This document shows positions 6,703 through 24,742 of a DNA stretch of 55,115 bases, piece after piece (positions within the stretch are counted from its first letter, which is position 1; each line of letters starts with the position of its first letter). The DNA comes from Candidatus Bipolaricaulota bacterium (GTDB taxonomy: Bacteria; Bipolaricaulota; Bipolaricaulia; RBG-16-55-9; DRXL01): positions 1 through 55,115 of the forward strand of contig JANXAU010000061.1 of NCBI GenBank assembly GCA_025061735.1, in the 5' to 3' direction. A program made the position numbers and the translations under genes. The notes under the pieces are model-generated. The model did no database searches. It had not been told where the DNA came from and worked only from the letters and a program-made list of their open reading frames with translations.

Positions 6703-6717
6703 AGAATAAAGAGGAGG

Positions 6718-6819
6718 GAGAGCTTGACCCCCCATAGGAGCGGCTGGGGAAAAACCCCGCTAGGGGGAGCGGGTAAAACCCTGGCCGCCGGCCTTCATCT
6801 AGGCACGGGTCAAGCTCTC
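6718..6819. ncRNA. Structured RNA element of unknown family
   Basis: A perfect 13 bp stem (6718-6730 with 6807-6819) closes a 76-base interior. Inside, GCGGC (6740-6744) can pair with GCCGC (6784-6788), enclosing two small hairpins, GGGG-A5-CCCC (6746-6758) and GGG-TAAAA-CCC (6771-6781). This nested junction is far more ordered than an average gap. I do not recognise SRP RNA, 6S RNA, tmRNA, RNase P RNA or a common riboswitch. On the + strand it would lie between pnp and a strong Shine-Dalgarno sequence; on the - strand it lies downstream of an extended -10 promoter. The strand is undecided, and a bidirectional transcription-end structure is possible. Confidence 0.45.
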
Positions 6820-6837
6820 GGCTCAAGGAGGTGATGA

Positions 6838-6984
6838 GTGCTTCATTCGCTTACCCTACTACCCGCCACTGTTATTATAGCACCGGTTTGGGAAATTCTG
6901 ACAGATTCGGTCGGAAAATCTCTAAAATCGGCTTCAGAAGCGCAAGAAAACCTCTTGACCGCCGCTTTCGTCATGTCGTCCTGA
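6838..6984 (+). CDS. Candidate 48-residue small protein
   Basis: An unusually strong Shine-Dalgarno sequence, AAGGAGGTGAT (6825-6835), is followed six bases after GGAGG by GTG at 6838. That frame stays open for 48 codons to TGA 6982-6984. The product has a hydrophobic N-terminal half and a polar C-terminal half rich in Ser, Lys and Glu, so it could touch a membrane. No family is recognised. The support is the ribosome-binding site and the lack of any other explanation for it. A competing frame from ATG 6834 has only two bases of spacing. Confidence 0.35.
   Translation: MLHSLTLLPATVIIAPVWEILTDSVGKSLKSASEAQENLLTAAFVMSS
6874..6882 (-). promoter_or_regulatory. Extended -10 promoter pointing toward the structured element
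   Basis: On the minus strand the sequence reads TGCTATAAT, the same extended -10 found before the HesB-type, HEPN and amidase genes in this window. Transcription would begin near 6867 and run across the sequence complementary to AAGGAGGTGAT and through the 13 bp stem. No minus-strand coding region follows, so the product would be a small RNA or a transcript antisense to the end of pnp. Confidence 0.5.
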
Positions 6985-24015: not shown

Positions 24016-24201
24016 TCACCACGACGCCTTGCGCACGCCGGGCAGCTCGCCGCGATGGGCCATGGCGCGAAAGCAGAGCCGGCACAGCCCAAAATCCCGA
24101 ATATATCCACGGCGGCGCCCACAGACGCTACACCGTCGCACCCGGCGCGCCGCAAACTTCGGCGGCATTAGCGCCTTGTGTATCCATGATGTCTTGCCCA
24201 T
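24016..24201 (-). CDS. rpsZ: 30S ribosomal protein S14, type Z (zinc)
   Basis: The 61-residue short form of S14 carries two CxxC pairs (CSVCGRRRG and CRLCF) that bind zinc. It is the short type Z form, unlike the longer Cys-free S14 of E. coli. It lies between rplE and rpsH. Confidence 0.95.
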
Positions 24202-24211
24202 GCCAACCTCC

Positions 24212-24742
24212 TTAGTCTTTGAACGGCGCGCCCAGCGCCTTCAGTAAATAACGAGCTTCTCGATCGTTCTTCGCCGTGGTCACAATCGTGATGTCCATCC
24301 CCTGGACTTTCGCAATCTGGTCGTACTTGATCTCCGGGAAGACCAACTGCTCGCTCAAGCCCAGCGAAAAATTCCCCCGGCCGTCAAACGAATCCGACGA
24401 CAACCCGCGAAAGTCACGGATTGCGGGCAGCACTATGTTAAAAAGCTTCTCCAAAAACGCATAGGCGCGCACCTTGCGCAGCGTCACCCGGCAGCCCACC
24501 GGATCGCCCTTGGTCAGCCCAAAGTCCGAGATGCTCTTCTTCGCCTTGGTGATCACGGGCTTCTGCCCCGAGATCAGCGCCAGGTCGCGCGCGCACCCCT
24601 CGATCTTCTTGGGGTCGTCGTGCTCTTTGATGCCCATGTTGATCACGACCTTCTCGATCTTGGGCACCTGCATAATATTCTTATATCCCAGTTCTTTCAT
24701 CAACTTGGGCACAATCTCTTTCTTATAGCGTTCATAGAGCAT
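24212..24742 (-). CDS. rplE: 50S ribosomal protein L5
   Basis: L5 binds 5S rRNA and contacts the P-site tRNA. The 176-residue protein begins [15 protein letters not shown] and has the central [19 protein letters not shown] segment. ATG 24742 follows GAGG at nine bases and is preferred over GTG 24751. Confidence 0.96.

Follow-up and report, generated by a model that had tools for sequence, protein, structure and literature searches.

The structured element in the gap between moaD and pnp is one copy of a multi-copy structured RNA family of Bipolaricaulota that is absent from Rfam 15. It was found in a 55,115-nt stretch of DNA (the whole stretch analysed, hereafter the window) from a Candidatus Bipolaricaulota bacterium. 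The finding is real and goes beyond what an earlier note on this DNA described, in that the element represents a new structured RNA family. Its likely function is of a known kind, that of small RNAs (sRNAs) bearing an anti-Shine–Dalgarno (anti-SD) sequence, whereas its architecture is unlike that kind. The window copy is probably a stand-alone, trans-acting sRNA encoded on the minus strand, one of five paralogues in its genome, which would repress translation by occluding Shine–Dalgarno (SD) sequences.

Layout of the window copy

The perfect 13-bp stem P1, the SD/anti-SD sequence and the extended -10 element are all present where the earlier note had placed them. On the plus strand, positions 6825-6835 read AAGGAGGTGAT, the exact complement of which is AUCACCUCCUU. 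The assembly that holds the window (G000) is 93% complete and is without 16S rRNA, and the anti-SD sequence was taken from the 16S rRNA of relatives. The 3′ end of this rRNA is GGATCACCTCCTTTCT in ten genomes of the order, and the window copy is identical to it over 11 nt, which bears out the proposed complementarity of the SD-like element to the 16S tail. The parts of the element are as follows:

6882-6874, minus strand: extended -10 element TGCTATAAT of the sRNA, read in the sequence; transcription start predicted at about 6867
6703-6867, minus strand: putative sRNA transcript of about 165 nt, delimited by the promoter position, the stem end and the pyrimidine tail
6822-6838, minus strand: 5′ hairpin CUCA-UCACCUCCU-UGAG presenting the anti-SD, identical in G001, G002, G003, G005, G006 and G008
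6825-6835, minus strand: AUCACCUCCUU, the same letters as the 16S rRNA 3′ tail (16S ends from 10 genomes of the order)
6807-6819, minus strand: 5′ strand of stem P1, GAGAGCUUGACCC, read in the sequence and paired with 6718-6730
6791-6804, minus strand: P2 hairpin GCCUAGAUGAAGGC, from folding
6738-6790, minus strand: family core of 53 nt, comprising the P3 stem, GGG/CCC, the U4/U5 internal loop with a coupled A.G closing pair, and the inner hairpin (covariance models R1/R2, covariation)
6775-6778, minus strand: U4 tract of the U-rich internal loop, with little or no variation among 69 distinct copies
6750-6754, minus strand: U5 tract opposite, likewise with little or no variation among 69 distinct copies
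6718-6730, minus strand: 3′ strand of stem P1, GGGUCAAGCUCUC; relatives have G-U on the minus reading and A-C on the plus reading
6703-6717, minus strand: pyrimidine-rich 3′ tail CCUCCUCUUUAUUCU, probable terminator or 3′ end (from the sequence; the shorter relatives L058, L060 and L096 end P1 in a clean U-run)

Convergent with pnp, the RNA points at the 3′ end of that gene; at its other end, it starts back to back with the promoter region of moaD. The orthologues in G001 and G002 keep the promoter element as GCTATAAT and GTTATAAT, respectively. The plus strand at 6703-6840 has a folding energy of -65.3 kcal/mol (z -3.3), and the predicted minus-strand transcript has a z of -2.2; energy alone is weak evidence for the window RNA, and conservation decides. 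In folds of the predicted full transcript, some pairing between the 5′ leader and the anti-SD is possible; with the leader left out, the anti-SD is 0.89 unpaired. The P1 stem may double as a terminator.

Core family and phylum-wide relatives

The centre of the window element was recovered by a DNA search in 12 of 100 relatives, and a scan of 84,980 genomes with a strict pattern matched 27 stretches, the titles of which name Bipolaricaulota or Acetothermia save for three from one MAG. A first covariance model of the 53-nt core (R1) found 76 places, covering all 19 genomes of the order to which the window belongs and none of the 81 other genomes of the phylum. With the stem register corrected, a second model (R2) gave 84 places within the order (2-8 in each of its 19 genomes, five of them in the genome of the window) and, outside the order, one clear homologue (G033) and one marginal match (G070). 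The match G070:C251 (L198) and a second match in L099 look like chance matches in coding sequence. The window copy matches R2 in its own genome with an E value of 1.9e-14 and belongs to the family by this match, its covarying stems and its U4/U5 loop.

On the minus strand, the core consensus is 5'-N5 C CA GGG UUUU R CCNNN - loop - NNNGG R UUUUU S CCC A G N5-3'. Standard pairs make up 96% of the paired cells in 69 distinct copies (35-61% in controls with slid pairing), and double changes occur in 10 of the 13 pairs; cells with double changes number 199, against 54 in shuffles. In the corrected register, GGG pairs with a CCC shifted one position 3′; the first register was dropped because A-U compensation in three copies shows this shift. 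The R.R position is always coupled (G.A in 62 copies, A.G in 5, A-U in 1 and G-C in 1). The covariation for which the earlier note had looked to related genomes is strong in the core.

The orientation of the RNA is given by several asymmetries. Of 76 copies, 18 have TATAAT upstream on the sense strand, while the other strand has 1 and shuffles give 1.7; the T-loop GGTT[CT]GA lies 3′ of the core in 24 copies, against none on the other strand. Stem cells on the minus reading include 24 G-U as against 11 A-C, and the shortest copies (L058, L060, L096) have the order promoter, P1, core, P1′, U-tract, or end in a U-tract. Judged by these sequence features, the RNA is genuine and is encoded on the minus strand. 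Of the two options offered earlier, that of a minus-strand RNA with its own promoter and anti-SD agrees with these asymmetries, with the covariation and with the enrichment of the anti-SD over about 76 copies, whereas that of a plus-strand structured leader for a small protein finds no support.

Family copies lie in intergenic gaps in which neighbouring genes and their orientations vary, and since they vary, the core RNAs would be independent genes rather than cis-leaders. A mobile element was rejected as an explanation: viral contigs are without the strict pattern, and the copies occupy ordinary intergenic places. In L018, L024, L025 and L038, a conserved strong promoter (TTGACA-N18-TATAAT-like) lies downstream of the RNA and faces it from the 3′ side; it would yield an antisense transcript with GGAGG loops, possibly forming an antisense pair. 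The earlier remark that the element fits no RNA family holds against Rfam 15, in which the RNA had no match at either gathering or permissive thresholds, Pestivirus SLI and anti-hemB being chance matches. A c-di-GMP-I-GGC riboswitch (E 1.9e-13) on contig C4 of the same genome, at 2879-2963 of L075, is a separate element near another family copy.

One paralogue per genome, termed type 5, is about 340 nt long and highly conserved (L076 in the genome of the window). Its model, R3, matched 53 of the 100 genomes, and these span most of the families in the phylum. The type-5 consensus is cloverleaf-like, with an acceptor-like stem, a short hairpin, a long arm and a T-arm; within the order, the long arm contains the core, and it ends in a CCUCCU loop at the place of the tRNA anticodon. 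In this consensus, 94.8% of cells are paired and double changes occur in 22 of 30 pairs, in an alignment that was fitted to the model and is biased in its favour. Among 35 type-5 homologues outside the order, CCUCCU is present in 30 and the T-loop in 35, whereas the U5 loop is present in only six (families f8 and f9). This pattern of retention suggests that the anti-SD loop and the T-loop cloverleaf are ancestral, and that the U-rich loop and the multiplication of paralogues are derived. The window copy matches R3 in the core only and appears to have lost the T-arm; its syntenic orthologues in the moaD-pnp gap of G001 and G002 match R3 over the full length (E 9.5e-10 and 2.3e-8, respectively). 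The elements L244-L247 (families f7; G050, G040, G058, G070) are related to type 5, with a T-loop and a cloverleaf, and are without CCUCC; three of them have a sequence like GGGGAUGAAG or AGGGAUGAAG in the long arm and L245 has AGGGAUGGAG, perhaps a different seed or reading.

The anti-SD motif and its proposed role

Of the 76 copies, 61 contain ACCTCCT, where shuffles give 1.0, and family copies are depleted of GGAGG. The motif stands in a 5′ hairpin in copies of the window type, in a single strand between hairpins in others, and in the apical loop of the core in the rest, where it is mostly more than 0.8 unpaired. CCTCC is missing from several divergent copies (L060, L063, L109, L118-L120). 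That the motif is kept across differing contexts suggests that pairing with an SD-like sequence is what is selected.

In the proposed mechanism, the structured core would serve as a scaffold from which the exposed ACCUCCU(U) pairs with strong SD sequences (AAGGAGGU) in mRNAs; this pairing would block 30S binding and so repress a set of SD-led genes. As the paralogues hold the anti-SD in differing contexts (apical loop or 5′ element) and have their own promoters, each might respond to conditions of its own. Of the 58 ORFs in the window, 17 are preceded by an SD of five bases or more, which would confine the action of such an RNA to a subset of genes. Computed energies for duplexes between the loops and SD sequences are ample (-15 to -23 kcal/mol). 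Hfq was found in 2 of the 19 genomes of the order and in 4 of 100 genomes of the phylum, and with so little Hfq in the order, pairing would need to proceed without it. A search with sequences complementary to the type-5 and type-1 loops yielded no conserved specific target beyond the SD; it returned the family itself and scattered SDs, with no leader common to different genomes. The leader of the uS14 gene (AAGGAGGTTGGCATG; 24200-24213 of the window, minus strand) is complementary at 13 of 14 nt to the conserved type-5 loop; this complementarity was not seen in relatives and may be due to chance.

The chief rival to SD occlusion is mimicry of the 16S 3′ end. A cloverleaf with an anti-SD loop would then bind the 30S subunit, or else a reader of the AUCACCUCC tail such as Era, and would regulate ribosome assembly or hibernation rather than single mRNAs. 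The tRNA-like T-loop cloverleaf of type 5 with the anti-SD at the anticodon-arm position, the phylum-wide conservation of type 5, the 11 nt of 16S tail in the window copy and the lack of a specific conserved mRNA target all accord with such mimicry. However, Era reads GAUCA, and it is ACCUCCU, not GAUCA, that is common to all types; moreover, two to eight paralogues with a varied periphery suit regulators better, and we regard 16S mimicry as unlikely. The anti-SD might instead be secondary, the conserved function being that of the scaffold (the U-rich internal loop and T-loop junction, binding for example an A-rich strand or a protein), with CCUCC making a tertiary contact. In favour of such a scaffold, the U-loop is more invariant within the order than the CCUCC position and tolerates almost no change. 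Against it, most homologues from outside the order are without the U5 loop, yet 30 of 35 have CCUCCU, and the anti-SD is retained while moving between structural contexts. This alternative is rather improbable.

Two further explanations have very little probability. If the element acted on the plus strand, it would be a structured leader, or an SD sponge, before a small ORF, as in the earlier proposal of a leader for a 48-codon ORF at 6838; the SD in a hairpin loop on that strand, its slightly better fold there and the strong opposite-facing promoter of L018-type copies would be consistent with this. The ORF is unconserved, though, the frame after the SD being only 9-25 codons at orthologous loci (G001, G002, G003, G005), and the minus-strand promoter falls inside it; the G-U/A-C asymmetry, the T-loops and the -10 boxes also favour the minus strand, which makes plus-strand action highly improbable. 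The least probable explanation is an ordinary terminator or a chance hairpin between convergent genes. P1 with its pyrimidine tail does resemble a terminator, but as a full explanation this is refuted by the covariation, copy number and phylogenetic conservation of the family.

Relation to known RNAs and significance

SD occlusion has close parallels in Proteobacteria. NfeR1 represses its targets with CCUCCUCCC anti-SD loops, blocking ribosome binding (PMC10746234), and the cuckoo or alpha-r14 sRNAs of alphaproteobacteria are multi-copy trans-acting sRNAs with the anti-SD CCUCCUCCC in unpaired regions (PMC10746234, PMC4504443). Like cuckoo RNAs, the Bipolaricaulota family is multi-copy and holds its anti-SD in an unpaired loop. 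Cuckoo RNAs, however, consist of two to four simple tandem hairpins in which only the loops are conserved and the motif is CCUCCUCCC, whereas the Bipolaricaulota RNAs have a single branched fold with a conserved core, T-loop, U-loop, cloverleaf and ACCUCCU; there is no Rfam relationship between the two, and the phyla differ. On the best reading of this comparison, the Bipolaricaulota RNAs would work like the cuckoo/alpha-r14 sRNAs and be unrelated to them.

The U-rich internal loop recalls the ENE elements of PAN and related RNAs. In the Evade ENE, U-tracts and flanking G-C pairs are both needed for the triplex (PMC12501189), and in the order the Bipolaricaulota core likewise has UUUU and UUUUU flanked by GGG/CCC and CC/GG in 69 distinct copies. 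By contrast, known ENEs are described as eukaryotic and viral, while the present loop is bacterial, is of the form U4/U5 and is lost in distant relatives; no A-rich sequence or conserved A-tract was noticed in the Bipolaricaulota RNAs. The loop is only ENE-like, and a triplex is hypothetical.

The type-5 RNAs resemble tRNA and tmRNA in their T-arm with a TTCGANT loop and their cloverleaf-like junction, but they have an acceptor-like stem of 4 bp, no CCA end and long extra domains, and the window copy appears to lack a T-arm; neither ARAGORN nor the Rfam models made a tRNA or tmRNA call on family copies. The 6S RNA and the bacterial Y RNA (YrlA) are likewise independent structured sRNAs of similar size. 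The 6S model RF00013 matched none of 40 phylum relatives, with positive controls, and Y RNA was set aside because the TROVE/Ro protein is absent from 60 phylum genomes and there was no Rfam match.

A broader scenario is speculative and, in our estimate, unlikely: a phylum-wide tRNA-like RNA may read ribosome-binding sites with an anti-SD 'anticodon' arm, and in one order it may have spawned sRNAs that are stabilised or targeted by a triple helix between the ENE-like U-loop and A-rich RNA, the latter being a poly(A) tail or an A-rich leader beside the SD.

A search of the literature found no papers on noncoding RNA in Bipolaricaulota, to which the present family adds a structured RNA represented by several paralogues in each genome. 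Its occurrence suggests that RNAs which block SDs arose independently outside Proteobacteria, in an order from which Hfq is nearly absent, and its ENE-like loop provides a concrete test case for U.A-U triple-helix elements in bacteria.
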